This document shows, piece by piece, positions 25,062 to 38,110 of a DNA stretch of 40,770 bases. A program made the position numbers and the translations under genes. The stretch is taken from the NCBI GenBank assembly GCA_012519925.1, contig JAAYPF010000129.1:1-40770 (forward strand), read 5' to 3'. Each line of letters begins with the position of its first letter. Within the stretch, counting starts at the first letter, position 1. This DNA comes from Clostridiaceae bacterium (GTDB lineage Bacteria > Bacillota > Clostridia > Acetivibrionales > Acetivibrionaceae). Below the pieces are notes generated by a model. It made no database searches. It saw nothing but the letters and a program-made list of their open reading frames with translations, and was not told where the DNA came from.

Positions 25062-25643
25062 ATGATTGGTGTGTTAACTATGAACAAAGAAAGAGACAAC
25101 ATGTTGGTTGAAAACACCTTGAAAGGCAATATAAGTTCCTTTGAGGAGTTAATAAGGTTGTATCAGGTAAAGATTTTCAATTTCCTTTCAAAAATGACGG
25201 CATCACGAGAGGACGCAGAGGAAATAACTCAGGAAGTGTTTATAAAGGTTTATAAGAACCTATATAAATACAATAATAAATGGAGTTTTTCCACCTGGAT
25301 ATATCGTATAGCCATAAATACATTGAGGAGCGAGTACAGAAAAATAAAAAATAACAAAGATATTGATTACTACGCTACTATACCGGAGCTGCCTGCAAAT
25401 TTTAGCGATTACCCTGAGATAGCCTATGAAATTAAGGAGCAGAGTGTAGAAATTATAAAGCTTATTGACCAACTAAAAGAAGATCAGAAAACCGCATTGC
25501 TTTTACGCTGTATGCAGGATTTTTCTTTTAAAGAAATAGGCGATATATTAGGAATAACACCTGATGCTGCAAAGATGAAGATACAAAGGGCTAAGCAGTC
25601 TATTTGCAGGAAGTATGAAAAATTGCAAGAAAGGGGTAGATGA
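25062..25643 (+). CDS. ECF-like RNA polymerase sigma factor
   Basis: A 193-residue sigma-70 family protein with only regions 2 and 4, as in ECF sigma factors. Region 2 covers about 20-95 (SFEELIRLYQVKIFNFL, REDAEEITQEVFIKVY, SFSTWIYRIAINTLRSEYRK). Region 4 covers about 130-185 (LKEDQKTALLLRCMQDFSFKEIGDILGIT and the KMKIQRAKQSI recognition helix). GAGGAG lies 8 nt before ATG 25062; an internal ATG at 25080 is less well placed. Its TGA overlaps the next gene, a membrane-anchored zinc-finger protein that is the likely anti-sigma factor. The stress it answers is unknown; the GerMN partner hints at the envelope. Confidence 0.92.
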   Translation: MIGVLTMNKERDNMLVENTLKGNISSFEELIRLYQVKIFNFLSKMTASREDAEEITQEVFIKVYKNLYKYNNKWSFSTWIYRIAINTLRSEYRKIKNNKDIDYYATIPELPANFSDYPEIAYEIKEQSVEIIKLIDQLKEDQKTALLLRCMQDFSFKEIGDILGITPDAAKMKIQRAKQSICRKYEKLQERGR

Positions 25644-27040
25644 AAATGAAATGCAATTTTAATGTTGAAGACTTAATTAAATATACTGAAAATCTGCTTT
25701 CGGATGAAGATAAAGAGAGAGTTTTGGAACACTTGAATTCCTGTGAGAAATGTAAAAGAAACTATGGCGTGTTGAAATTCACGGAAACCTATGCAAAAGA
25801 CAGTTTACCCGTGAGTGAGAGCATCAGTAAAAATGTAATGGAGGCGATAGATGTGAATAGATACAGTAAGAATAAGAAATTTTGGCTGGGAGGTGCATTT
25901 CATAGAGCAATACCTGCTATTAAGCCAGTTTTAGCAGCGACAGCAGCAGTTGTGGTGTTATTGGGTGTAGCGAATTTTGGCAGTTTACGAGGATTGATTT
26001 ATAATCCCAGCAGTGTAGGACCTAGTACAACCGACCCCGTTAACCATCCTCAAAATACTAATCCGGCTGTTTTACCTGAAAGTACAAACGCTGTAACTAA
26101 AGAACCTGTGGAAACGAAACTAATTACTCTTTATTATGCAAATTCTAATGCAGACAAAGTGGTTGCTGAGAAAAGGGAAGTTGAAATAAGTAAAGACACA
26201 CAAATAGAAAAATTGGTGTTTGAAGAATTGCAAAAAGCCCCAAAAACTGAAGGTTTATATTTACCAATTCCTAAGGGGACAAAACTTTTATCGGCATCAA
26301 CCGAAGGCGGCATCTGCACTCTTGATCTTTCTAGGGAGTTTGTGGATAACAGCCCTGGAGGAACGGCAGGAGAATTAATGACTTTGTACTCAATAATTAA
26401 TACAATGACCGAGCTTCCTGATATTGATAAAGTCCAGTTTCTTATTGAAGGACAAAAGGAAGAAGTATACGTACATGCCATATTTGATGAGCCCTTTAAA
26501 AGAAATGATGATATTATCGAGAAAAGTTCAAGCGAGATAAAAGCTGAAGTTGAAGCTAGATCTCAAATAGCTATTAAAGCAATTAAGGAAAAGGATATGG
26601 AAAAGCTGGCTTCGTTAGTACATCCCGTTAAAGGCGTACTGTTTTCTCCCTATTCCTACATTGAATTAGAGAAGCATAAAGTGTTTACAAAGGATCAATT
26701 AAAAGACCTGTTGGAGTCGGAAAAAGTGTATAATTGGGGAGATTATGACGGATCAGGTCATCCGATTGAGTTAACCTTTAGGCAGTATTTTGATAGATTT
26801 ATATATAATCAGGATTTTGCGAATGCAGAAAAAATAGCATATAATGAAGTACAGCAACTGGGCAATACTATTGTCAATATTTCGGATATTTATCCTGAAA
26901 GTAAATTCATAGATTACTACTTTTCCGGCTTCAAACCTGATTTTGAGGGTATGGATTGGGCGAGCTTGAAGTTGGTTTTTGAAAAGTATGACGGTCAGTG
27001 GTATCTTGTATGTATTGCACATGGTGAATGGACTATTTAA
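25640..27040 (+). CDS. Membrane anti-sigma factor with zinc finger and GerMN domain
   Basis: A 466-residue partner of the sigma factor. The cytoplasmic N-terminus carries the anti-sigma zinc finger (H31 followed by C35 and C38 in HLNSCEKC). A single membrane helix lies at about 94-112 (AAVVVLLGVANFG). Outside, after a Pro/Thr/Asn-rich spacer, is a GerMN domain (about 160-290; ISKDTQIEKLVFEEL, GTKLLSASTEGGICTLDLSREF), a fold found in sporulation and germination lipoproteins. A distinct C-terminal domain (about 305-466) that I do not recognise follows, ending VFEKYDGQWYLVCIAHGEW. ATG 25640 overlaps the sigma stop; ATG 25646 (GGGG 9 nt upstream) is a close alternative. It probably senses an envelope signal and releases the sigma factor. 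Confidence 0.85.
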   Translation: MKMKCNFNVEDLIKYTENLLSDEDKERVLEHLNSCEKCKRNYGVLKFTETYAKDSLPVSESISKNVMEAIDVNRYSKNKKFWLGGAFHRAIPAIKPVLAATAAVVVLLGVANFGSLRGLIYNPSSVGPSTTDPVNHPQNTNPAVLPESTNAVTKEPVETKLITLYYANSNADKVVAEKREVEISKDTQIEKLVFEELQKAPKTEGLYLPIPKGTKLLSASTEGGICTLDLSREFVDNSPGGTAGELMTLYSIINTMTELPDIDKVQFLIEGQKEEVYVHAIFDEPFKRNDDIIEKSSSEIKAEVEARSQIAIKAIKEKDMEKLASLVHPVKGVLFSPYSYIELEKHKVFTKDQLKDLLESEKVYNWGDYDGSGHPIELTFRQYFDRFIYNQDFANAEKIAYNEVQQLGNTIVNISDIYPESKFIDYYFSGFKPDFEGMDWASLKLVFEKYDGQWYLVCIAHGEWTI

Positions 27041-27179: not shown

Positions 27180-27934
27180 AAACCTATTCCTATTAGCCAA
27201 GAAGAGTTAGGAATAAAGCAAATAATCGATGAGTTCTACACAAAACACCCTGATTATGGCTACCGAAGGATGACAACTATACTAAATAGGGATTATCATG
27301 TTGGAATTAATCAAAAAAAACACGCAGATATATGCGTGAAATGGGGAATCACGGTTTTTGTCCAGGTCCAAATCTAAGTAAACGTTTAAGAGGCAAGTAT
27401 GTTTATCCTTATCTTTTAAGAGGTTTAAAAATCGATCGTCCGAATCAGGTATGGTCTATAGATATAACGTATTGCAGGATGAAACATGGATTTATGTATA
27501 TGACAGCAATAATAGATTGGTATTCACGTTATATTGTTGGTTTTTCGGTAACTAACACGTTAGAGAAGACATCTGTTGTAGAAACTGTCAAGAAAGCAAT
27601 TAAAAAATATGGAGCTCCTGAGATAATGAACTGTGACCAGGGCTCGCAATTTACAAGTGATGAATATATAAGTGTATTGAAGGAAAATAGTATAAAAATC
27701 TCAATGGATGGAAAAGGACGTGCATTAGATAATCAAAGAATAGAGCGATTTTTCCGGTCATTTAAATGGGAAAAACTATATTTGGAAGAGTATGAAACCG
27801 GTCATGAGTTGAAACATATCATTCAAGAATATATAGAGTATTACAACAACCAAAGACCTCATCAATCACTAAACTATAAGACACCTGCTGAATATTATTT
27901 AGGAAATTTAAGAGATTTACCCGTTGCGGGATAA
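27180..27934 (+). pseudogene. IS3-family transposase orfB, truncated and frameshifted
   Basis: An upstream frame encodes ISQEELGIKQIIDEFYTKHP and DYGYRRMTTILNRDYHVGIN, the typical IS3 HTH/linker region. Reading then shifts by one base at an A8 tract (27313-27320) into a second frame. That frame runs from MREMGNHGFCPGPNLSKR (27332) to the TAA at 27934. The integrase core is intact there, with acidic residues in WSIDIT, NCDQGSQFTS and NQRIERFFRSFKWE (DDE), and the usual YNNQRPHQSLNYKTPAEYY end. One lost A would explain the shift. With the 5' end missing as well, the gene should be inactive. Confidence 0.85.
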
Positions 27935-28170
27935 AACCTTGGGGCACTGCCCCAAACCCTGTCCTCGCCGGAAGGCAACCGGTCTGTCATAACAGACCAT
28001 AAACAAAAGGATAATGGTGAATGGATGGGCTACGCCTCCAATGAACGAGCAAAACTCGCTCGCCCTTGACATCCCCCGACTAAGTAACTAACAATATACA
28101 TTATAAGGGAATTGCCAAAAAATGTACGGCATTTAAACTTGCAATTTATAAACTAAGCCAACGAAAAAAA
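27935..28170. repeat. GC-richer, hairpin-rich tail of the IS3 element
   Basis: Noncoding tail with several small stems: TTGGGGCA/TGCCCCAA (27939-27955), GGTCTGT/ACAGACC (27981-27998) and CGAGC/GCTCG (28046-28062). Its base composition differs clearly from the AT-rich host DNA on both sides. Confidence 0.5.
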
Positions 28171-28197
28171 TTGTCTTGACAATTGGGGGCATTATAA

Positions 28198-29700
28198 TCA
28201 GTTAACAAACATTGCTAAATGATCAATATTAAACACATATCCAGCCTGTTCTTTCAAAGCCTTGCTTTCTGAATCTATTGTAGCAGCTGAATTCCTAAAA
28301 TAACTAATCATATCCATATCATTCAGGCTATTCCCCATGACAAATACTTTATCCTCACAAAAATTATTTAGCTGACATATCTTAAGTACGCCTGTAAGCT
28401 TACTAGCATAATTAGAATTTATATTTACAATATCCTTTTCACAAGTTACTTTCAACATAGAATTTGACTCTATATTTGCCGGAATATTCTTTTTAAAAGC
28501 AAGTACTTTATATACCGAATCGTTCTCTTTATATACTCTAATTTTCGGTATATCCGACAATACTTCTAGAGCCTCTTTTTTCAGAGCTACTATCTCTTTA
28601 TAATTCAAACTAAAGTCAACTACCTGTCCACCATTTGCAAATACACCGCCACTTATATAATTTCTTATTGGATTACACTTTTTTAATGCAGTATGTAAAG
28701 GTAGCGATGTAGCAAGATAAATCCTGACTTTATCCTTTAGAAATCGTATATGCTCTATGGCCTTTTCATTTACTACCCCAAATTCATTAGTTATAGTGCC
28801 ATCAACATCAATAAATATGACCTCTATATCTTTTTTAAAGGGAACTCGTATAGGCGTATACTTCCCAAAGTATCTTTCAAGCTTTAGGTCATACCTATGG
28901 GAATAAGACAAATAACAGTCGCAAAATCTTTTGTCACAACTTAAGGGCTCTATCACACTTTGATTTGTATATATATTAAACATCCTGTTTTTGTTAATGT
29001 GGCAGGCAAAAACATCCCCATTTGCCCTAATAAAAACACTGTCAGTTCCTGCACTACAACAATTGTTCCTAACCCTGTTTCTTTGCAACTCATTGTAGAA
29101 AAGAGGATCCACTTCTATCAAAGATTTAATCTGAGATTCTGTATATCTTGTTTTCTCTCTCTCCTTTGCGTTAATCCACATATATACATCATGGGGTAAT
29201 TGTTTACGAAGTTCAAACACATTTTCCAGATCCCCAGGTATTGCAACTATTCCCACGCATAAATCAATACTGGTTTTCAGCAGCTTTACCTTATCTACAA
29301 ATTCATCAATAGAAACCATTTCAGGATGACAACTAGCCCACAACTTGACTTTTGATAAGTCAACCTTTAATGCCCTTAATTTCTCTAAAAACTCATACTC
29401 ATTAAAACTTAAATTAGTTTGAAAAGATATATACCTGCATTTTGGATTAATAGCAAGTTTCCCAATAGCTTCTACATAATGATCATGTATAAGCCCTTCC
29501 CCGTAGGGCGTAAAAAAAATTGAGACAGCATTTTTAAACTCTGTAGTATCAATAAACTCACAAAATTTATTCAGACACTCCTTGTCCTTTGAAAGCTCAG
29601 TTTTACAAGGCTCTTTTTTTGCAAAACAGCAATAGGAGCAGGAGTAATTGCAGGAAGACAATAAGCCTCTAAAATATATGTTTTTTACATCTTCAATCAT
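28198..29700 (-). CDS. STM4011-type radical SAM protein fused to a HAD phosphatase
   Basis: A 500-residue two-domain enzyme, last gene of the operon. Residues 1 to about 280 are a radical SAM domain with the 4Fe-4S motif C17-x3-C21-x2-C24 (CNYSCSYC). A cysteine-rich segment follows (CCSAG, FACHIN, SCDKRFCDC, about 210-260) that could hold an auxiliary Fe-S cluster. Residues about 288-500 are a Cof-like HAD phosphatase: FIDVDGTIT (motif I), LATSLP (motif II), a lysine in KLTGVLK (motif III) and MGNSLNDMDM (motif IV). As I recall, STM4011 relatives have only the radical SAM part, so the fusion is notable. ATG at 29700 has GGAGAG upstream and overlaps the previous stop by 8 nt. Substrate unknown. 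Confidence 0.85.
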   Translation of the reverse strand: MIEDVKNIYFRGLLSSCNYSCSYCCFAKKEPCKTELSKDKECLNKFCEFIDTTEFKNAVSIFFTPYGEGLIHDHYVEAIGKLAINPKCRYISFQTNLSFNEYEFLEKLRALKVDLSKVKLWASCHPEMVSIDEFVDKVKLLKTSIDLCVGIVAIPGDLENVFELRKQLPHDVYMWINAKEREKTRYTESQIKSLIEVDPLFYNELQRNRVRNNCCSAGTDSVFIRANGDVFACHINKNRMFNIYTNQSVIEPLSCDKRFCDCYLSYSHRYDLKLERYFGKYTPIRVPFKKDIEVIFIDVDGTITNEFGVVNEKAIEHIRFLKDKVRIYLATSLPLHTALKKCNPIRNYISGGVFANGGQVVDFSLNYKEIVALKKEALEVLSDIPKIRVYKENDSVYKVLAFKKNIPANIESNSMLKVTCEKDIVNINSNYASKLTGVLKICQLNNFCEDKVFVMGNSLNDMDMISYFRNSAATIDSESKALKEQAGYVFNIDHLAMFVN

Positions 29701-30979
29701 CACAAAATCTCTCCATTTTCTGTGCAACCACATCAGATATAAGCATAGGTCCAATATAATCCGACAATGAAAGACCAAGAGGTGTTAGTTTTATTCTTCC
29801 ATCGATTTCTGTAATCCACTTTTCTAGTTGGAATTTATTAAATACAGGGAAGTCCTCGTATGGACATGTGCCGAAGTACTCTTTATAGTCAGACAAAGGC
29901 ACTCCTCTATAGTAAAAGAGATTTTTAATTAAAAACCTCCGCTTCATTTCATCATTGTCCAGTTTATAAAAGCTTAATCCTTTAAAAAACTCATTTTGCT
30001 TTATATACTTATTCAAAGAGTCCCTGCATTTAGATTGCTTCGAGGTATACTTTTCGCAAAAATGCAGATTTCCAATGTAGCTTCTTCCTCCACAACCAAG
30101 GGCAATCATATTGTCAAATCCACAGCTGTTTTCTTCTGAAGGTTTATCTTTTACAAATCTTCTCATAGAAGTTTGGAAATATCCTTTATCTTTTAGAAAT
30201 TCGCATATCATAAAATACATTCTGTATTGAAGCTCTTTATCTAAATTAAAATTTCTATATATGCTTGTATTTGGTCTTTGATATAGAGGATAAACAAATA
30301 TCTCATTTGGTTCATAGGAGACAGTCATATCCAAGGAATATCTTAAGCTTTCCAAAGTCTGAGAACTAATCCCATATATCAAGTCAATATTAAGGCTATC
30401 AAAACCTACATGTTTAATATCTTTGAGGGCTTTCTTGACTTTGTCCACACTATGAAATCTTTTTAGCTTATCCAATTCTTTTTGTACAAAGGATTGAACA
30501 CCGATACTTACCCTGTTTACTTTCCTAGACTTTAAATATGCCAATTTTTCATGTGTAGTCTGGTTAGGTGAGGTTTCTACAGATATACTAACCTTATCCC
30601 AATCTATTCCAAAATCATACTTTGCTATATCAAACAGCTTCTCCAATTGATTTATGGAAAGGATAAGTGGTGTCCCGCCACCAAAAGTCAATGAATCAAA
30701 CTGAGCACCTTTAAAATTCAATACTTCCCTGTAGTTTTTGCTGTGGCGTTTAACTGCCTCAATATAACTATTTATTTTTTCAGCACTTTTGCAGGGTATG
30801 GAAAACAAATTGCAGTATCCGCATTTACTGTCACAAAAGGGTATATGAAAATATAGAGTTGTAGGACTTTTGACTAATTCTGAGCTACACTCATTTAACT
30901 GTAAATTTTCAATATATTGATAAGCAGTCTTATGGGGATAACTATACATATAACGCCTATATGCATTATGTATTACCAA
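29693..30979 (-). CDS. STM4012-type radical SAM protein (HemN-like)
   Basis: A 428-residue radical SAM protein related to coproporphyrinogen dehydrogenase HemN/HemW. The cluster motif is C49-x3-C53-x2-C56 in HIPFCDSKCGYCNLF, followed by the SAM-binding FGGGTP (near 97-102), SVETSPNQTT and VNRVSIGVQSF; a HemN-like C-terminal region follows (about 310-428). Its place between STM4013- and STM4011-type genes identifies it as the STM4012 type rather than a haem enzyme. The start is TTG at 30979, 4-5 nt after AAGGTGA; the next in-frame ATG (residue 11) has no ribosome binding site. It starts 12 bp after the upstream gene. Reaction unknown. Confidence 0.88.
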   Translation of the reverse strand: MVIHNAYRRYMYSYPHKTAYQYIENLQLNECSSELVKSPTTLYFHIPFCDSKCGYCNLFSIPCKSAEKINSYIEAVKRHSKNYREVLNFKGAQFDSLTFGGGTPLILSINQLEKLFDIAKYDFGIDWDKVSISVETSPNQTTHEKLAYLKSRKVNRVSIGVQSFVQKELDKLKRFHSVDKVKKALKDIKHVGFDSLNIDLIYGISSQTLESLRYSLDMTVSYEPNEIFVYPLYQRPNTSIYRNFNLDKELQYRMYFMICEFLKDKGYFQTSMRRFVKDKPSEENSCGFDNMIALGCGGRSYIGNLHFCEKYTSKQSKCRDSLNKYIKQNEFFKGLSFYKLDNDEMKRRFLIKNLFYYRGVPLSDYKEYFGTCPYEDFPVFNKFQLEKWITEIDGRIKLTPLGLSLSDYIGPMLISDVVAQKMERFCDD

Positions 30980-30991
30980 AATCTCACCTTC

Positions 30992-31852
30992 TTACAATAT
31001 AAAATGCTTGTAAGGAACAGTATAAACTATTTCATGGGACAAACAGTGAAAATGGTAACCATCTTCTCCGTAACAGCTTCCATGGTCCGAACAGGCTATT
31101 ACAAATGTTTTGCCCCTTGCTCTAAATAAATCAAACAGCCTCTCAATATGGTTATCTACATATTGCAGTGCTGCTGCATGGGTATCTACCGAGTCTCCCT
31201 TTGCCCCTTCAAGATAGAAATAATTCGGATAATGAATGCTGTCTATGTTCAAATACATAAAAACTCTTTTATTGTTATCATATTCTTTGAGTTTTCTTTC
31301 AATAAAATTTAATTGATTTTCAAAGCTATCTTTTATGTGGCAACTGAAAGATGGATGCCAGTAACTACGCTTAAACAGGCTTGGAAGAACTCTGTTTATT
31401 TCCGTTCTTTTATTAAAAAAGCCAACTCCACCAACACATATTGTTTCGTAGCCTACTTTTTCAAGCCCTTCTACAAAACTTGCACCCTCAAATAAGAAAG
31501 CTCCCTTAGGGGTGGGCGTATTGGCAGCCATATCCTTAGGTATAAAAAGTCTTTCCATTTCAAACATCGGCATTGGTTCTGCAGGAGTCGGCAAAAATCC
31601 TGCAAACATTGCCAAATGAGACGGATAAGTGAAATTACCTGGTGCATGACGCTTTTCCCATTTACCGTACCTGTTTAGATTTGGAGTACCGTTCTTTTCC
31701 TGCTCATTAAAGGCTACGTCATATCTTAAAGTATCTAGGCAAACAAATAAAATATCATGTGTACCTACTATCTCATTCATATTTACTGAGTATTTGGCTT
31801 TTGTAATATCTCCTAAGATTTCCATTGGTATTTCCTTGCTTCCCTTAGCCAT
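30992..31852 (-). CDS. STM4013-type hydrolase (sulfatase/alkaline phosphatase fold)
   Basis: A 286-residue member of the alkaline phosphatase/sulfatase superfamily, matching the STM4013/SEN3800 type. Metal-site and nucleophile regions are visible: VCLDTLRYD with D40, NFTYPSHLAMFAG with T75 and S78 as candidate nucleophiles, LNIDSIHYPN, and the histidine-rich CSDHGSCYGEDGYHFH near the C-terminus. No signal peptide is present, so it acts in the cytoplasm, unlike secreted sulfatases; no C-x-P-S-R formylglycine motif is seen, so it is more likely a phosphoesterase or phosphotransferase. Its ATG overlaps the stop of the ATP-grasp gene by 8 nt. Confidence 0.87.
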   Translation of the reverse strand: MAKGSKEIPMEILGDITKAKYSVNMNEIVGTHDILFVCLDTLRYDVAFNEQEKNGTPNLNRYGKWEKRHAPGNFTYPSHLAMFAGFLPTPAEPMPMFEMERLFIPKDMAANTPTPKGAFLFEGASFVEGLEKVGYETICVGGVGFFNKRTEINRVLPSLFKRSYWHPSFSCHIKDSFENQLNFIERKLKEYDNNKRVFMYLNIDSIHYPNYFYLEGAKGDSVDTHAAALQYVDNHIERLFDLFRARGKTFVIACSDHGSCYGEDGYHFHCLSHEIVYTVPYKHFIL

Positions 31853-32834
31853 AGTTCACCATCCTGATTAATTGATTTTTGTAAATTCTGTTTTCATTAT
31901 AAATATCTTGGTGTATCAAATCTCCTTGAGCATTCATTTCTATAATCACAGGCTCTAGATTTTTTCCTCTTAGAAGTATATCGATTCCTGCATAGTTTAG
32001 TCCATTAAAACAAGCTACAGCCTCCCTGCACACATATCCTATCTTGCAAATTACTGATTGAGGTAGTTTTAGTAAATTTATATCCAAGGCATTGTTGTTT
32101 AAATGTAGATTTGTGATAGGAGAACCTGAACACCTTGCAACCATAAAGTCTATTTTTCCAAATTGATAAACCACCCTTATATCATAATTAAAGTTTTTGT
32201 ATTTTGGTTTTGGTATCCATTTTTCAATGATATATGGCTGAGAAAAAATAAAATTGACCAGTTCCTCAACTCTTTCAATTTGGTCTATTCTAAGTGTTTT
32301 TTTTGTGTTAACAAACTTTCCGTCTATTTTATTAATAGATGTATAAATAAACTCCGAGCATATTTTGGGGTGATATCTATAAGCTATTATTCCAGCCGCA
32401 CCCGAGCCAAAACATGGCTTTATAAATAAACTGTAGGTTTTATTTTCTCTTATGTATCGCCTTAGGGCATCTATATCAGGAAATATTTCGTTAACTAAAG
32501 GAGTTACAGAAATCCTGTTTTTCACAAGAATGTCTTTACACTTTCTCTTATTGAGAGTATCAATGATACTTTCAGGAGAGTTCAGAAAAGTCAGTTTTTT
32601 GTTGCTGCCAATGTCTTCTAAATAAGAAGTGTATCCTTTTACCAGTATATTGAGATTGGATAGATCACAATCCTCATATTGGGGTGGATCTATTTTCACG
32701 ATACTGTTTTTTGCAACATGAACAAGGGATGAACCAATCTCATAAAAACTGACCCCTGCACCTAACTCTTGTGCTGCCTTCAAGAAATAGTCCCTTCTTT
32801 TAGTTCCTGGTTGCCCTATAAGAATAATATTCAT
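31845..32834 (-). CDS. STM4014-type ATP-grasp protein
   Basis: A 329-residue protein with an ATP-grasp fold, second gene of the operon. The N-terminus MNIILIGQPGTKRRDYFLKA is the STM4014 pattern as I recall it. The ATP-grasp core shows SLFIKPCFGSGAAGIIAYR (about 135-153), the acidic YIIEKWIPKPK, the arginine-containing FNYDIRVVYQFG, and the metal-binding end VIIEMNAQGD. Enzymes of this fold join a carboxylate to an amine or thiol through an acyl-phosphate, so a ligase step is likely; the substrates are unknown. It begins 13 bp after the LRR gene with AAGGA overlapping that stop codon. Confidence 0.86.
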   Translation of the reverse strand: MNIILIGQPGTKRRDYFLKAAQELGAGVSFYEIGSSLVHVAKNSIVKIDPPQYEDCDLSNLNILVKGYTSYLEDIGSNKKLTFLNSPESIIDTLNKRKCKDILVKNRISVTPLVNEIFPDIDALRRYIRENKTYSLFIKPCFGSGAAGIIAYRYHPKICSEFIYTSINKIDGKFVNTKKTLRIDQIERVEELVNFIFSQPYIIEKWIPKPKYKNFNYDIRVVYQFGKIDFMVARCSGSPITNLHLNNNALDINLLKLPQSVICKIGYVCREAVACFNGLNYAGIDILLRGKNLEPVIIEMNAQGDLIHQDIYNENRIYKNQLIRMVNYG

Positions 32835-32847
32835 AACCCAAAAATCC

Positions 32848-33699
32848 TTACTCTGTCAGCATGGGATAATTCCCATACTCTTCGTCATTTTCCATCTGTT
32901 CCTCAAGATTTATATTTATAGGAAGTCCTTTTAATTTTCTCACATAATCATCCGTAATGAAATGATAATGTAAGTCTAATAATTCTAGATTCTTAAGTTT
33001 ATCCGCATTGTCTATTATAAGCTGTGCACCTTTATTTGAAAGGTTTCCGTTGGAAAAATCCAATACCTTAAGATTTGAAATAATATCAGAGTTCAAAACT
33101 TGTCCAACAATCTCATCTTGAATTTCACTGTTACCTAATCCAAGATAATCTAAGCTTGTGAAATTCTTATTTTCGATAAGCTTTTTAATATCTTCAATAC
33201 TTCCATCAAATCCATAATCCTCAACTCCAAGATATAAATTAAGCTTCTTAAGTTTAGGTAAGTTGGAATTGGCGATTTCTAAAATCACTGATTTAGGAAG
33301 CCCACCACAGATAATTTCAAGGGATTCTAACTCAGTATGCTTTAATTCACCAAGACTAAGATTGTTGCTTCCTTTAATTTTCAGGTGTTTGAGATTTTTT
33401 AGCGACTTTAACAGCTCACTGTAATTTCCTTGCTCTATCCATGAAACTTCACATTCTTCAGAATCCATGTCTCCTATAAAAAGGGTTTCAATATGAGAGA
33501 GTTTGTCACTGTTTTCTGAGAATAGATCTAGAATGGATTGACAGCTATTATCATAGGATTCTCCCCAGCATCCTACAATTATGGCCTTAATAGAGCTTAA
33601 GTCTGGATCACTTATTATCTCCTCAGCTAATGTACTAGCATCCTTGCCACCATCCTCATAATCCTCGTAGTCATAAAAATATCTTTTTGTATCATTCAT
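32848..33699 (-). CDS. STM4015-type leucine-rich-repeat protein
   Basis: First gene of the operon, 283 residues. After an aromatic/acidic N-terminus (RYFYDYEDYEDGG) come leucine-rich repeats of the ribonuclease-inhibitor kind: LKSLKNLKHLKIKGSNNLSL, LPKLKKLNLYLG, LDYLGLGNSEIQDE, LKVLDFSNGNLSNKG and LELLDLHYHFITDD. It ends in an acidic EEQMENDEEYGNYPMLTE tail. There is no signal peptide. It is the only non-enzyme of the cluster and may be a scaffold, a binding partner or the substrate. ATG at 33699 lies 8 nt after GGGAGG; the in-frame GTG at 33708 overlaps that site. Confidence 0.85.
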   Translation of the reverse strand: MNDTKRYFYDYEDYEDGGKDASTLAEEIISDPDLSSIKAIIVGCWGESYDNSCQSILDLFSENSDKLSHIETLFIGDMDSEECEVSWIEQGNYSELLKSLKNLKHLKIKGSNNLSLGELKHTELESLEIICGGLPKSVILEIANSNLPKLKKLNLYLGVEDYGFDGSIEDIKKLIENKNFTSLDYLGLGNSEIQDEIVGQVLNSDIISNLKVLDFSNGNLSNKGAQLIIDNADKLKNLELLDLHYHFITDDYVRKLKGLPININLEEQMENDEEYGNYPMLTE

Positions 33700-33720
33700 G
33701 GTATACACCTCCCGAAAATT

Positions 33721-33749
33721 AGTATATCAGAATTAATCAGAGTTTGGAA
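33721..33749 (-). promoter_or_regulatory. Promoter of the STM4015-4011-type operon
   Basis: Read on the minus strand: TTCCAA, a 17-bp spacer and TATACT preceded by TGA (an extended -10), ending about 20 bp before the start codon of the LRR gene. The -10 is a good match and the -35 is weak. Confidence 0.55.
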
Positions 33750-33756
33750 TATTTGC

Positions 33757-33785
33757 TTTACCTTTACATCGATCTTTGGTATAGT
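33757..33785 (+). promoter_or_regulatory. Candidate promoter of the divergent lipoprotein gene
   Basis: TTTACC (33757-33762), a 17-bp spacer and TATAGT (33780-33785), 42 bp before the preferred TTG start. It is nearly back to back with the operon promoter on the other strand. Confidence 0.4.
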
Positions 33786-33827
33786 TATGCCAAGAACAGT
33801 ATAATTTTGTTTGGCGGGGTGTTTAAT

Positions 33828-35600
33828 TTGAATAAGTTGATAATAGCAGCTTTAGTGGGGCTTCTTGTTTTTACAGCTTGTGATGAAGATACAAACAAGA
33901 CTGGTAATGAAAATGTACTTCCGACAGTTACAAAGTCTGAAGATGTAATAAATATTGACGGAATTAATATCTCTAGCATTAATATTAAAGACTTAAATAC
34001 CGGACTAGATTCAATTCTAATTAAAGATGGTATAATCCGGGAGTTTTGTGAGCTTCTTAATGAAATGAAGTTTACAAAAATTGATGAATCATACATTCCA
34101 CAATATGAAGCGGAGATTTTTGATGGCGGGGAACCGGTTTTGAAAATAAGTTTTATGGGGAATGTGGTTTCTTTTAGTGAGAAAATGATGATAGGAAACA
34201 AAGTTTTGGAAAGTGGCAATTATGAGATAGAAAATTGGATATCTGATAATATTAAACACTTTTATGAAGGTACGGTTTTGGACCCTCAACAAATTGAACT
34301 TCCTGCAAGTATTTATTTGCCCGAAGCCGAGTTTGATTTGGAGATGGTTGACAGGGGAAGTACAAAGGTCAATCAGCAGGAAGTATATTCACAATTATAT
34401 GAATTTGTGGCAAAGAGTTTTTGTAGCCAGAAGGTTGAAATTGTGGAGTACGAAAGAGTAGATGATTATGAATTAATGGAGGAGAAGAAGCAAATTGCTA
34501 GGAAAAATACAAGGGCAATAATAATTCAAAACATAGGTGGTTATGGCAGTTACATAAAAGTGGATTCGGATAATGATTATGATGAATGGATTTCTGCCTC
34601 ATATATTGTATTGTCTGAGTGTATAGAAAAGCCAGGGATTTATCAACTATATTTAAATAGCTCAATAATTGATTTTAAAGCTGATGGTGAATTTGTCAGA
34701 ATTTTTAAAAATGTTTTTGATACAAATGCAAAAGAATCGAAGAATTTGACCCCTGATGAAATTGAAGCATTGTTCAATGAAAAGACACCTTACTATATGG
34801 ATTATATCTGCAAAAACCTTGGTATTGAAAGCTGGCGATGGAGAGAAGCTAATAGAGTAGAAAAGCATAAGAAGAGTTTAAATAGTGGGGAAGAACCTTA
34901 CACTGTTTTGGAATTATGTAATGATATTAACTTAAGGCTTTTATTCTTTAAAGAAGACAAGTTTATTGATTATATAGATTATGGACATAGAACTGCTGGA
35001 ACTGAGTACCGTTTGGAAAAGGTCGGAGATAAAATATTTATTGTAGGAAGGAAAAACAGAGGGCATGGGACAGGTGAGGAGAGGAATTTTGAAGAATGGT
35101 ATACATTGAGTGATGAAGGCAAAAAACTTGTTATCAGTTTTCCTTATTATGATTTTATTCAGCCGCCTTATAGGGGATATGAATTGACTGCAAATAACAT
35201 TAAATTAAATACCGGTGAAGATATGAGTATCGTAGTAAATTACAAGGTCAGAAAGTTTTATATGATGGATATGGATATTGCCAATGAGCACGGTCAGATA
35301 ACAATAGAGGGAACAAAGAGGGTTATATTTAAATGGGATGATGAAAAGTCTGTCTTTGTATCCGAATACGGTCAAAATGATATGGGTATGGTTGAAATTC
35401 CTCCTGAAAGTGATGATATAAATAAGAAATGTACCGAGCTGCTAAAAAATAAATATCAGCAATTAATTAAAATTATGTCACCAACATCTGAAGATATGAA
35501 AGACTCATGGAGAGATTTCCTATACAATTGTGAGGATTGTGATGAAAAGACTGCATTGCTTGAAAGGTTAAAGGACAAATATTTGATTATAAAGCCCTAA
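33828..35600 (+). CDS. Hypothetical lipoprotein (590 aa) divergent from the STM operon
   Basis: A secreted lipoprotein candidate. From the TTG at 33828 the protein reads MNKLIIAALVGLLVFTAC, a short signal peptide with a lipobox-like FTAC at residues 15-18; GGGGTG lies 6 nt upstream. Frames starting earlier (33744) place a long non-signal stretch in front and lack a ribosome binding site. The mature protein is acidic and strand-rich, with no membrane helix. Segments such as DNDYDEWISASYIVLSECIEKPGIYQL are not from a family I can name. It is divergently transcribed from the LRR gene, sharing a 128-bp promoter region, so a functional link is possible but unproven. Confidence 0.75.
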   Translation: MNKLIIAALVGLLVFTACDEDTNKTGNENVLPTVTKSEDVINIDGINISSINIKDLNTGLDSILIKDGIIREFCELLNEMKFTKIDESYIPQYEAEIFDGGEPVLKISFMGNVVSFSEKMMIGNKVLESGNYEIENWISDNIKHFYEGTVLDPQQIELPASIYLPEAEFDLEMVDRGSTKVNQQEVYSQLYEFVAKSFCSQKVEIVEYERVDDYELMEEKKQIARKNTRAIIIQNIGGYGSYIKVDSDNDYDEWISASYIVLSECIEKPGIYQLYLNSSIIDFKADGEFVRIFKNVFDTNAKESKNLTPDEIEALFNEKTPYYMDYICKNLGIESWRWREANRVEKHKKSLNSGEEPYTVLELCNDINLRLLFFKEDKFIDYIDYGHRTAGTEYRLEKVGDKIFIVGRKNRGHGTGEERNFEEWYTLSDEGKKLVISFPYYDFIQPPYRGYELTANNIKLNTGEDMSIVVNYKVRKFYMMDMDIANEHGQITIEGTKRVIFKWDDEKSVFVSEYGQNDMGMVEIPPESDDINKKCTELLKNKYQQLIKIMSPTSEDMKDSWRDFLYNCEDCDEKTALLERLKDKYLIIKP

Positions 35601-35647: not shown

Positions 35648-38110
35648 TTAAAATTCTGTTATCATGCCTAAAAGATACATTCTCATATATGCAAAGTCAA
35701 TTGAGTCGAAAAAGCCGTTCCTGTTAACATCGGCCGCCTGTTCTCCGTACTCATAGGGGAAATATGTACGAATTCCGAGTAAACTCTGTCTCATAGATGC
35801 AAAGTCAAGGGCATCTATAAATCCGTTTCCGTCCACATCTCCTATAATATAGGGTGGTTTTGGCGGAGGGGTGGAATTTGAATCTGTTTCTGAGTGTATT
35901 GTAAACGAATTCGGAGAGGCAGACACGAGTTTACCGTCAGAGAAAGTGACTAACTTAGAGGCATTGGTCGCGTTATATATAACATAAGTCTTTTTTGAGT
36001 CCCTTGTAAATACCGAGTACAAAGGTGTATTGGAGGTAACGCTGAAATCAGGCAAGCCCATATTGTCAAGATTATATATCCAGTGATAGGTATGTGCTTT
36101 GCTTTCACCCGATTCAGGTATTATGCTGTCGTTCCACTTAGCCTTTGCTGCGGCAGGGTCATACAGGGCATAGTACATGTATTGAATATCCTTCCAATTT
36201 TGAGGTTCATTTGACCCACACTCTTTTAGCATTTCTTCATAGTTTTGTTTTACATAGGATGGGTTTTTGCCAAGATAAAGGGAGGCTGCATTTATTGGAA
36301 GAAAATTAATACCATGCACTTCTGAATTTGTACCCGACCACCAAATTTCATGGCAGTGTTTTGCACCCCATACCATAGAAGCATAATTGAGGGGATAGGT
36401 CGAAGGAAATATATCATTATCTATATCAAACCAGTAGTTATTGATTGCTTCAATTTCAGTTGTATAAAGATAAATACCCAAGTCCCTAAGGGTTTTATTG
36501 CCAGTTGCTTCTCCCCATAATATTATTGCCTGCCAAGCATTTACTGCTTCGGAAGAGGACTCGTGGTTGTTGCCGTCATCAAAGCCAGCATTACCTGATG
36601 CCCAGGAGTGACCCTCATACGGGTCAAAGCTTCTTAAGAATGGAAATCTTGTATCTGATCTATCCCAGTTTGCAATATCTTTAATAACAGTCTCCACCAT
36701 TGAACCCCACTGTTCGGAGGATGCCCAAACAGGATCTCTTAGGGCAATTTGTGCAGCGGCATGAATAAAATATCCATAATGGAAATGGTGGTCGTTTAGT
36801 GTTTCGTCGCTACCGTAACTGGCGGGATATCCTATTAGAGTGCCCCAGTTTTTATCATAATAGAACAGCTTGGAGGTTTCGCCGGAACCCGCTACAAACC
36901 AATCTTCAAGGGTTGCTTTGATTATATCGGTAAACTTAGAAGCCGCGGAAAAATTCTGTGCCTGTTCAGCAATAGGAAGTGCATTTGCCAATTTGCCAAG
37001 GAATTTACCTGTCCAATATGTATCGTTTGCATCACTCACCGGGTTAGTTGCTAGTTCATTTATATAGCTGTTTAAAGTTGCTTTATCGTAGGACCCCTTA
37101 TCCGGCAGCGAGGGGAGAATACCCTGGTATTTGTAAGTTGTTTTGAAGGATGTGCCCGATATGGTCTTCATTAATCCTCTTACAGTAGTATAACTATAAG
37201 GAAGGGGTGATATTGAGGAGTTGTTCTTCCATTGGTGAGGGTAGAGAGCAAGTATTGTGTCTTTGTTTGAACCTTCCTTTATTTCAGTGGTAATTATGTA
37301 GTCAGTAGTCAATGTACTGTCATTTTCATTGTAATTCCAACTGACTTTTGTGTCTGTTACAAAGGCAAATGCCCGGGCTTGATAGTATCTAAAAGTGGAC
37401 TCGGAATTATCGGGTAATACTGCTATTACAAAGTAATTTTTGCCAGAAGGCAGGTTGCAGGTGAGCGTATTGGTTCCTAAACCGCTCCAGGTTGAACCGG
37501 CAGGGCCAAACAAGCCGTAGTTTGTTCCGTTTAGGGTTAGTCCGAGGAAGGAGGTATAAGCATCACCGTAGAACACATTGGCGTTTGACGACAGGGTAAC
37601 TTTAGGATTACCTCCCGTATAAGTAAAATAGGAATAAGGGCTTCCTTTAACTAAAGTTGATTTAAAAACGTTTGTTCCTGTAGACATTATCACATCAACA
37701 GCAAAGTCGGATATCTTGTCTCCTCTTGCATCGGGAAAAGTCTCTGCACTAGAGTGACCTAAAGTAATATCACAACTATGTCCTGCCCAAAATGCTATAT
37801 TATTGCCGCCTAGATTAGGCTTGCCAATTTCAAGTCCTTCTCCTTTAAATCTGAAAGAAAAGGGATGGGCAAATATATTAAGTGAATAAGGATACCAAAG
37901 TATAGAGCTTTCCCAGCTACTGGTGGGAATTGCATCTTTGAGGTTGTCTGTTTTGTAAATGGTGGACTGTGGACCTATAGATCCAGAAGGTAAAACATCG
38001 GTATAATTTCCGTTGCCCATTACATATATGGTAGCATTACAAGGAATAACCGACATGCACAATAAACCAATTAGCAATATAATGGATAAGTAAAATTTTG
38101 TTTTTGACAT
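35648..38110 (-). CDS. Secreted GH81 endo-beta-1,3-glucanase with dockerin
   Basis: An 820-residue secreted enzyme predicted to cut beta-1,3-glucans (laminarin, callose, fungal walls). The signal peptide is MSKTKFYLSIILLIGLLCMS through about residue 26. A GH81 catalytic domain fills about 40-720, with conserved LNDHHFHYGYF (near 438) and the glutamate-rich NHESSSEAVNAWQA (near 515) that holds the proposed catalytic acids. After a Ser/Pro linker (DSNSTPPPKPP) comes a type I dockerin (about 753-818) with two calcium-loop repeats, GDVDGNGFIDALDFASMRQS and ADVNRNGFFDSIDFAYMRMY, so the enzyme should dock to a cellulosome scaffoldin. Loop positions 10-11 are AL and SI rather than the ST common in C. 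thermocellum. Confidence 0.94.
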   Translation of the reverse strand: MSKTKFYLSIILLIGLLCMSVIPCNATIYVMGNGNYTDVLPSGSIGPQSTIYKTDNLKDAIPTSSWESSILWYPYSLNIFAHPFSFRFKGEGLEIGKPNLGGNNIAFWAGHSCDITLGHSSAETFPDARGDKISDFAVDVIMSTGTNVFKSTLVKGSPYSYFTYTGGNPKVTLSSNANVFYGDAYTSFLGLTLNGTNYGLFGPAGSTWSGLGTNTLTCNLPSGKNYFVIAVLPDNSESTFRYYQARAFAFVTDTKVSWNYNENDSTLTTDYIITTEIKEGSNKDTILALYPHQWKNNSSISPLPYSYTTVRGLMKTISGTSFKTTYKYQGILPSLPDKGSYDKATLNSYINELATNPVSDANDTYWTGKFLGKLANALPIAEQAQNFSAASKFTDIIKATLEDWFVAGSGETSKLFYYDKNWGTLIGYPASYGSDETLNDHHFHYGYFIHAAAQIALRDPVWASSEQWGSMVETVIKDIANWDRSDTRFPFLRSFDPYEGHSWASGNAGFDDGNNHESSSEAVNAWQAIILWGEATGNKTLRDLGIYLYTTEIEAINNYWFDIDNDIFPSTYPLNYASMVWGAKHCHEIWWSGTNSEVHGINFLPINAASLYLGKNPSYVKQNYEEMLKECGSNEPQNWKDIQYMYYALYDPAAAKAKWNDSIIPESGESKAHTYHWIYNLDNMGLPDFSVTSNTPLYSVFTRDSKKTYVIYNATNASKLVTFSDGKLVSASPNSFTIHSETDSNSTPPPKPPYIIGDVDGNGFIDALDFASMRQSLLGIRTYFPYEYGEQAADVNRNGFFDSIDFAYMRMYLLGMITEF

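Follow-up and report, generated by a model that had tools for sequence, protein, structure and literature searches.

What the five protein families named STM4011 to STM4015 do together is the question raised by an operon at positions 28198-33699 of a 40,770-nucleotide stretch of DNA from a Clostridiaceae bacterium (assembly GCA_012519925.1, contig JAAYPF010000129.1, positions 1-40,770), the whole of which is called here the window. Five co-directional minus-strand genes follow one another in the order STM4015-4014-4013-4012-4011, and they encode a leucine-rich repeat (LRR) protein, an ATP-grasp protein, a member of the alkaline phosphatase superfamily and two radical SAM proteins. An original prediction made from the sequence had assigned them to these families, and a check with the NCBIfam profiles confirmed this, with all five proteins above the curated cut-offs. 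The descriptions of these models name no reaction, and the earlier statement that none has been assigned agrees with the passages retrieved from the open full-text literature, which holds few subscription papers and no bioRxiv preprints: searches for STM4011-STM4015, SEN3800 and DUF6745 gave only STM4013 and STM4015, once each in a line of a table. In the same literature nothing was found that brings together leucine-rich repeats, radical SAM enzymes and an ATP-grasp enzyme or precursor peptide. The five families thus have names and no reaction, and the model proposed below would, if right, give this gene set its first testable one.

The central observation concerns the C-terminus of STM4015. 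Its last residue is glutamate in each of the 109 distinct complete C-termini, counted after excluding 5 frames cut by the ends of their loci, and also in all 90 representatives left by redundancy reduction (below 80% ungapped identity over the last 150 residues); earlier and smaller sets had given the same result (97/97 relatives, and 105/105 distinct complete C-termini once loci were added). Open reading frames were taken from the first possible start codon, in such a way that N-termini are often overlong and C-termini are unaffected. The glutamate is kept in pairs of sequences that diverge down to 23% identity. For the other four proteins encoded in these loci, the most frequent C-terminal residue accounts for 9/82 STM4011, 23/83 STM4012, 44/87 STM4013 and 13/83 STM4014 sequences. 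As an invariant C-terminal-glutamate protein, STM4015 is a new observation. Its last six residues follow the pattern [YN]-[APV]-[MA]-[LV]-[TG]-E in their common letters, with YPMLTE in the window and ..MLTE or ..YVAVGE elsewhere, and are preceded by a linker of variable length with around 36% acidic residues.

An artefact of overlap with the start codon of a following gene was considered and rejected. The tested overlapping start is absent from 42 of the 97 genes, the terminal glutamate is encoded by both GAA (59) and GAG (38), and all three stop codons occur, so that translational coupling does not explain the pattern. No STM4015 member carries a C-terminal extension of more than 40 residues past the profile. 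Several LRR paralogues often accompany one set of enzymes, as in a Nostoc locus (L109) with four copies that are 37-49% identical and all end in glutamate. Fusions were seen among the other proteins of the operon: one of STM4014 with STM4013 (L046), one of STM4013 with STM4012 (L080), and many of STM4011 with a HAD domain. One frame of 778 residues (L134:1498-3834) has around 490 extra residues ahead of STM4015 and ends in YPMLTE; taken whole, it gave no Pfam match at E 0.1.

The protein is also strongly acidic, with a net charge of -29 in the window (in a 286-residue reading from an in-frame GTG at 33708, the ATG lying at 33699) and a median of -31 over 40 rows. Pfam LRR models match up to 21 of 40 members, and the family is homologous to solved LRR structures. 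One of these, Protein Data Bank (PDB) entry 2ra8, is a solved member of the family itself: it corresponds to the 'uncharacterized protein' Q64V53_BACFR of Bacteroides fragilis and matches at E 1.2e-94, with around 80 additional N-terminal residues in comparison with the STM4015 of the window. The alignment takes in the YPMITE of this entry and extends up to residue 354 of 362, and the 8 residues behind this motif would be compatible with a purification tag. For a homologue of the proposed carrier, a crystal structure is already public; the open full-text literature, within the scope given above, contains no mention of 2RA8 or Q64V53.

Structure models were made with AF2 (AlphaFold2) for STM4013 and STM4014 only, and the idea of a carrier had been set down before the structure search with STM4014. 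The model of STM4014 (mean pLDDT 93.9) had its best PDB match in 3vpb, the ligase ArgX with LysW (Foldseek E 1.2e-14), with a structural alignment of 268 residues at 2.7 Å and Z 24.1. Almost equal scores were obtained for RimK (24.0, with a range of 23.5-24.0 in five entries) and LysX (3vpd, 23.8), rows within 1 unit being counted as tied, and lower ones for DcsG (21.8) and GshB (21.3). By hhalign, STM4014 aligned with Escherichia coli RimK (probability 89.9, E 1.7e-6), in such a way that K139, R220, T241, N242 and N301 pair with K141, R189, S212, N213 and N262. In Pseudomonas RimK these positions are contacts to ADP or glutamate, according to the retrieved part of PMC10092738, and the E. coli enzyme carries the same letters at those numbers. 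Each of the five residues is kept in at least 82 of 84 STM4014 rows.

An acidic carrier that ends in glutamate and a ligase of the same ATP-grasp type are also found in the LysW/LysX (ArgW/ArgX) systems and in the Streptomyces amino-group carrier protein (AmCP) Vzb22. As described in the available text of PMC10433800, LysX and ArgX couple the substrate, through its amino group, to LysW at the gamma-carboxyl of the terminal glutamate, they recognise LysW via GSWGR/EDWGE, and a mutant of ArgW with its C-terminal glutamate changed to alanine is an arginine auxotroph. For the acidic amino-group carrier proteins electrostatic recognition is described as well (PMC9303977, in part).

By analogy, we propose that STM4015 is a carrier that is loaded on its C-terminal glutamate by STM4014, and that the load is then reworked by the radical SAM and phospho-enzymes, a reading to which we give even chances. 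STM4014, as an enzyme of ArgX/LysX/RimK type, would activate a carboxylate of the terminal glutamate with ATP and would join it covalently to an amino acid or another amine. The tethered compound would then be rebuilt by the radical SAM enzymes STM4012 (HemN/class-C-like) and STM4011 (SPASM-like), and its phosphate chemistry would be carried out by STM4013, through threonine-dependent phosphoryl transfer, and by the HAD phosphatase where present. As to release, a general cell protease could free the product, or the modified LRR protein could itself be the product. The data show the five-gene set and its co-retention, the invariant terminal glutamate, the acidity of STM4015, and the ligase fold of STM4014 with the catalytic residues it shares; the covalent attachment, the substrate, the sequence of steps and the product are inferred. 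The original prediction had seen the LRR protein as scaffold or substrate, a proposal that gains support here and can be narrowed to the invariant glutamate. The wider claim is more tentative, and we hold it with somewhat less than even confidence: that this is a carrier pathway of a new type, present in at least six phyla, in which a metabolite, or a cofactor of the LRR protein itself, would be assembled on the C-terminal glutamate of that protein by two radical SAM enzymes and two phospho-enzymes. The examples of carrier-protein biosynthesis described to date are lysine, arginine and a small number of further amino acids (PMC9303977, in part); if the claim is true, a new carrier fold and radical SAM chemistry would be added to them. 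The pearlin pathways (TglA with a peptide aminoacyl-tRNA ligase, PEARL) resemble the proposal in that a building block is placed on the C-terminus of a genetically encoded scaffold and modified there (same source), with the difference that loading depends on aminoacyl-tRNA and PEARL and the scaffold is a short peptide, whereas here an ATP-grasp enzyme would do it.

Several points weigh against the carrier proposal. The structural lead of the best matches over other ATP-grasp ligases (DcsG, glutathione synthetase, D-Ala ligases) is 2-3 Z units, the older LysX entries 1uc9 and 1uc8 rank lower (Z 20.0 and 19.9), and ArgX and LysX share the first place with RimK. The RimK contacts E178 and F210 pair with K205 and P239, and contacts before residue 75 fall outside the alignment. 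At the level of sequence, the Pfam RimK model matches just 2 of 46 STM4014 members at E 0.001 (ATPgrasp_ST 38, YheCD 20), and a PDB search gave weak matches throughout (best E 0.0016), most of them to D-Ala ligases, which come first, and to cyanophycin synthase and RimK. LysX and ArgX have GSWGR, which the STM4014 of the window lacks; its glycine loop is GSGAAG at 143-148, if the two loops are assumed to be equivalent. LysW is a small zinc-finger protein with the tail EDWGE, whereas STM4015 is an LRR protein with YPMLTE or YVAVGE. Counterparts of the kinase, reductase, aminotransferase and hydrolase of the LysW pathway are absent from the five genes, and the partners of STM4014 and STM4015 are two radical SAM proteins and phospho-enzymes, unlike in the LysW system. 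No release peptidase or transporter was found as a core gene among the recurrent clusters of flanking genes, and the invariance of the last residue might reflect docking instead of attachment. The missing release enzyme and the tie with RimK are among the weakest points. The STM system may work like LysW/AmCP, but it is not classed there, because the tests for the zinc finger, EDWGE and GSWGR failed.

The tie with RimK bears on an alternative in which STM4014 would place a RimK-like mark on STM4015, with the phosphatase genes and those of the radical SAM enzymes acting on this mark or elsewhere. STM4014 resembles RimK in its fold, in the aligned active-site residues and in having a protein C-terminus as target, in its case a proposed one. 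According to the retrieved parts of the sources, RimK adds glutamates to ribosomal protein S6 (PMC10092738) and acts at a protein C-terminus too (PMC7343187, PMC11957791), whereas the proposed substrate of STM4014 is STM4015. We consider this alternative unlikely: the HAD domain and STM4013, like the two radical SAM enzymes, would find no explanation in it, and yet they persist together with the ligase even in genomes whose operon has been broken up. RimK is not known to have radical SAM partners.

The model of STM4013 (pLDDT 91.4) has a fold of the phosphoethanolamine-transferase/sulfatase/phosphonate-hydrolase type; Foldseek listed phosphoethanolamine transferases first, and VIA-align placed choline-sulfatase (19.0) and other sulfatases level with these or a little ahead (EptC 18.7), a tie. 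Formylglycine-dependent sulfatases use the cysteine or serine of a CxPxR-type motif as nucleophile. STM4013 fails this motif, with T75 (within FTYPSH) instead of cysteine or serine in 88/88 aligned sequences, and conserves D40 (88/88), D256 (87/88) and H257 (87/88), ligands not being mapped on coordinates. For these reasons phosphoryl transfer is likelier than sulfate removal. Of the phospho/sulfo-hydrolase originally predicted, the first half is the likelier and the second is improbable.

STM4012 has the radical SAM motif CxxxCxxC at C49/C53/C56, scores below the equivalog cut-off of HemW (174.3 vs 205.4 bits) and below that of HemN (145.1 vs 324.95), and has HemN (1olt) and the methyltransferase NocN (9p2u) as nearest solved relatives by sequence. 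In STM4011, numbered from the GTG at 29703, the motif is C18/C22/C25, followed by cysteines 216, 234, 256, 261 and 263. These cysteines are conserved in 82-83 of 83 sequences and the C-terminal cluster is SPASM-like, with a Pfam SPASM score of 15.2 bits, under the cut-off of 21.5; a PDB sequence search gave SkfB as best match, weakly (E 0.011), and almost nothing else. The fifth protein has 501 residues for a family model of 278 positions, due to a C-terminal HAD-IIB domain (residues around 293-491) that the original prediction had overlooked. Within 80 loci, described below, the HAD domain is fused to STM4011 in 46; STM4011 stands without HAD in 29, and 5 have no STM4011 in the locus. In the Salmonella locus L022 a HAD-type domain forms a separate gene directly behind STM4011.

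SPASM-like extra cysteines are common in peptide-modifying radical SAM enzymes, and a patch of STM4015 (D80, E84, E87, S89 and W90) has every residue conserved in more than 90% of 98 rows. Both facts would agree with the LRR body being the substrate, the radical SAM enzymes modifying residues inside it, for instance those of the patch, and the glutamate serving as a recognition tag. A mere tag might tolerate aspartate or an extension and neither was seen, and an ATP-grasp enzyme with the fold of C-terminal ligases would have no obvious job, so that we regard this option as rather improbable, if worth keeping beside the RimK-like mark. The two phospho-enzymes, for their part, suggest a phosphorylated small substrate, and LRR domains usually bind partners. 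Accordingly, a soluble small-molecule pathway can be imagined in which STM4015 stays unmodified and serves only to bring the enzymes together or to sense the product; it predicts neither the invariant free C-terminal glutamate nor the fold of ArgX/RimK type, and we judge it a little less credible again.

When the genome collection was scanned with an STM4013 alignment, 547 relatives came up, the best 80 of which were kept as loci, a choice that favours close relatives. All five genes were found in 71 of these 80 loci, counting as complete one with an STM4012 fragment (L031), one with STM4014 in two frames (L063) and one with STM4012-4011 in front of STM4015 (L079), and the order 15-14-13-12-11 is kept in most of the 80. 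Six of the nine incomplete loci lie near a contig end (L036, L066, L069, L072, L092, L104), and in the other three (L075, L082, L083) the operon is broken up. Searches of whole genomes recovered STM4015 in every contig-end genome but that of L036 (5 of 6), STM4014 in 7 of 7 genomes searched (6 above the cut-off), and STM4011 in the genome of L092; it was not found in that of L066. STM4011 and STM4012 are present elsewhere in the genomes of L075, L082 and L083, STM4012 being split over two frames and just below the cut-off in that of L082. In this last genome the genes occupy three distant sites, with STM4015-4014 at around 1.15 Mb, STM4013 at around 0.06 Mb (its contig assignment is presumed) and STM4012-4011 at around 2.33 Mb, and in another genome (G232) STM4015, STM4014 and STM4013-4012-4011 lie on three separate contigs. 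The genes are therefore co-retained even where the operon is dispersed.

In a sample of 398 genomes of the phylum, evenly drawn and searched for STM4013, STM4014 and STM4015, each family exceeded its cut-off in 8 genomes, and these were the identical 8, although 5 of them come from one taxonomic family, which leaves fewer than 8 independent cases. Below the cut-off, matches appeared in further genomes (11 for STM4013, 79 for STM4014, 1 for STM4015). STM4011 and STM4012 were searched in chosen genomes only, outside this sweep, and were above the cut-off in 14/14 and 13/14, respectively, both of them in all 8 co-occurrence genomes. No family of the five reached its cut-off in 14 control genomes, where weaker matches (STM4013 in 3, STM4014 in 5, STM4015 in 0, STM4011 in 2, STM4012 in 14) are expected because the enzymes belong to large superfamilies. 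Pairwise distances among the five families correlate at 0.79-0.96 over 75 loci, a figure without a background set for comparison. These results bear on the view that ordinary HemN, RimK and phosphatase genes became neighbours by chance. The fold of each protein is familiar, as this view would have it; the proteins exceed the STM4011-STM4015 cut-offs and miss that of HemW, three families share the same 8 of 398 genomes, and the set is kept across six phyla. A chance neighbourhood is untenable because the gene order is conserved and the genes co-occur, as the original prediction had proposed, and we assign it a practically negligible probability.

The six phyla are Bacillota, Actinomycetota, Deinococcota, Pseudomonadota, Bacteroidota and Cyanobacteriota, with Salmonella and gut Lachnospiraceae among the carriers of the set. 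In a tree of four concatenated proteins (FastTree, midpoint-rooted, taxa labelled by their record titles) one side holds Paenibacillus, Nostoc, Methylobacterium, Deinococcus and Actinomycetota, and the other Bacteroidota, Clostridia and Salmonella, in such a way that Salmonella is apart from Methylobacterium. Each side mixes several phyla, which suggests horizontal transfer and agrees in part with the spread originally proposed; a recent arrival in the lineage of the window was not borne out, its copy grouping with clostridial relatives (Acetivibrio, Thermoclostridium, Anaerovirgula). A megablast search of 5,426 E. coli genomes, which needs close DNA identity, gave no match to the window DNA or to the Salmonella STM4012-4011 DNA.

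Some records of phages and plasmids were also noted. Three phage records match, and their names and identity suggest Salmonella DNA. A 178-kb 'plasmid' record of Salmonella Infantis (L022, NZ_CP019203.1 18612-33472) has the operon beside ompL, typA, glnA and glnL, genes expected on a chromosome. A plasmid of Bacteroides finegoldii (L028:6789-10956) carries STM4015, STM4014 and STM4011-HAD with only a fragment of STM4013, and STM4012 was not found in the locus. A divergent STM4013 relative (39% identical) is present on a Streptomyces albidoflavus plasmid (L026:4878-8327), next to a MoaA-like radical SAM protein, a thymidylate-kinase-like protein, a 159-residue protein and a NUDIX hydrolase, with no other STM gene found in the locus; this neighbourhood may hint at phosphorylated substrates. 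Ten Agrobacterium plasmid records (e.g., NC_002147.1 56830-57666) contain a distant STM4013 relative (around 25%) annotated as a sulfatase-like hydrolase/transferase.

The flanking genes were compared as BLAST clusters (E 1e-8) of six-frame open reading frames of at least 80 residues occurring in at least 4 loci, a search that small or diverged partners may escape. Among the recurrent clusters are ABC transporters and MATE-like proteins, which vary in their distance and strand. DUF6745, accompanied by a small protein, stands beside the operon only in loci of Actinomycetota, Deinococcus and Methylobacterium, and also occurs away from it, with five copies in a Nostoc genome and presence in 7 of 19 genomes overall. 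None of these neighbours was judged to belong to the core. The DUF6745 gene and its partner of around 100 residues were seen at L023:2168-3632, L025:3504-4829, L027:10034-11343 and L029:9979-11276 (Streptomyces, Methylobacterium and Deinococcus), and the N-terminal half of the Methylobacterium and Deinococcus proteins appears repeat-rich by eye. A reading as a defence system was likewise rejected: the PADLOC matches (PDC-M51A, E 1.5e-9; viperin, E 1.5e-5 and 3.3e-4) concern the radical SAM pair alone, and the other three proteins gave none.

Features of the operon in the window, with coordinates counted from its first nucleotide
Feature	Position	Strand	Remarks
STM4015-family LRR protein	32848..33699	-	283 aa from ATG; NCBIfam NF038076, 319.5 bits vs cut-off 275
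STM4015 C-terminal motif YPMLTE	32851..32868	-	Directly before the stop codon; last Glu is the proposed attachment point
STM4014-family ATP-grasp ligase (predicted)	31845..32834	-	329 aa; NF038074, 278.8 bits vs 175
STM4013-family alkaline-phosphatase-superfamily enzyme	30992..31852	-	286 aa; NF038075, 406.5 bits vs 250; Thr75 in nucleophile position
STM4012-family HemN/HemW-like radical SAM enzyme	29693..30979	-	428 aa, TTG start; NF006067, 501.1 bits vs 380
STM4011-family radical SAM part of fifth gene	28830..29700	-	NF038073, 277.4 bits vs 200
HAD-IIB (Cof-type) phosphatase domain fused to STM4011	28198..28830	-	Pfam Hydrolase_3, 52.4 bits vs cut-off 20.9

The coordinates agree with the layout first described: there are two overlaps of 8 nt (31852/31845 and 29700/29693) and gaps of 13 and 12 nt, and the fifth gene (29700..28198) starts with an ATG at 29700, the GTG at 29703 being an alternative. 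The promoter-like sequence reported upstream did not hold, with 28 such sites in 27900-34000 and 25.7 (sd 4.7) in shuffles, no excess over chance. Divergent from the operon, a 618-residue protein (33744-35600) has no Pfam match at E 0.001, and a 200-residue transposase frame with an integrase core (rve) lies at 27332-27934, around 260 bp from the operon end. Further away, 25062-27040 encodes a sigma-70-family factor with regions 2 and 4 and, behind it, a protein with zinc-finger and Germane domains, likely a sigma/anti-sigma pair, and 35648-38110 encodes a dockerin-bearing glycosyl hydrolase of family 81, as cellulosome-forming clostridia have.

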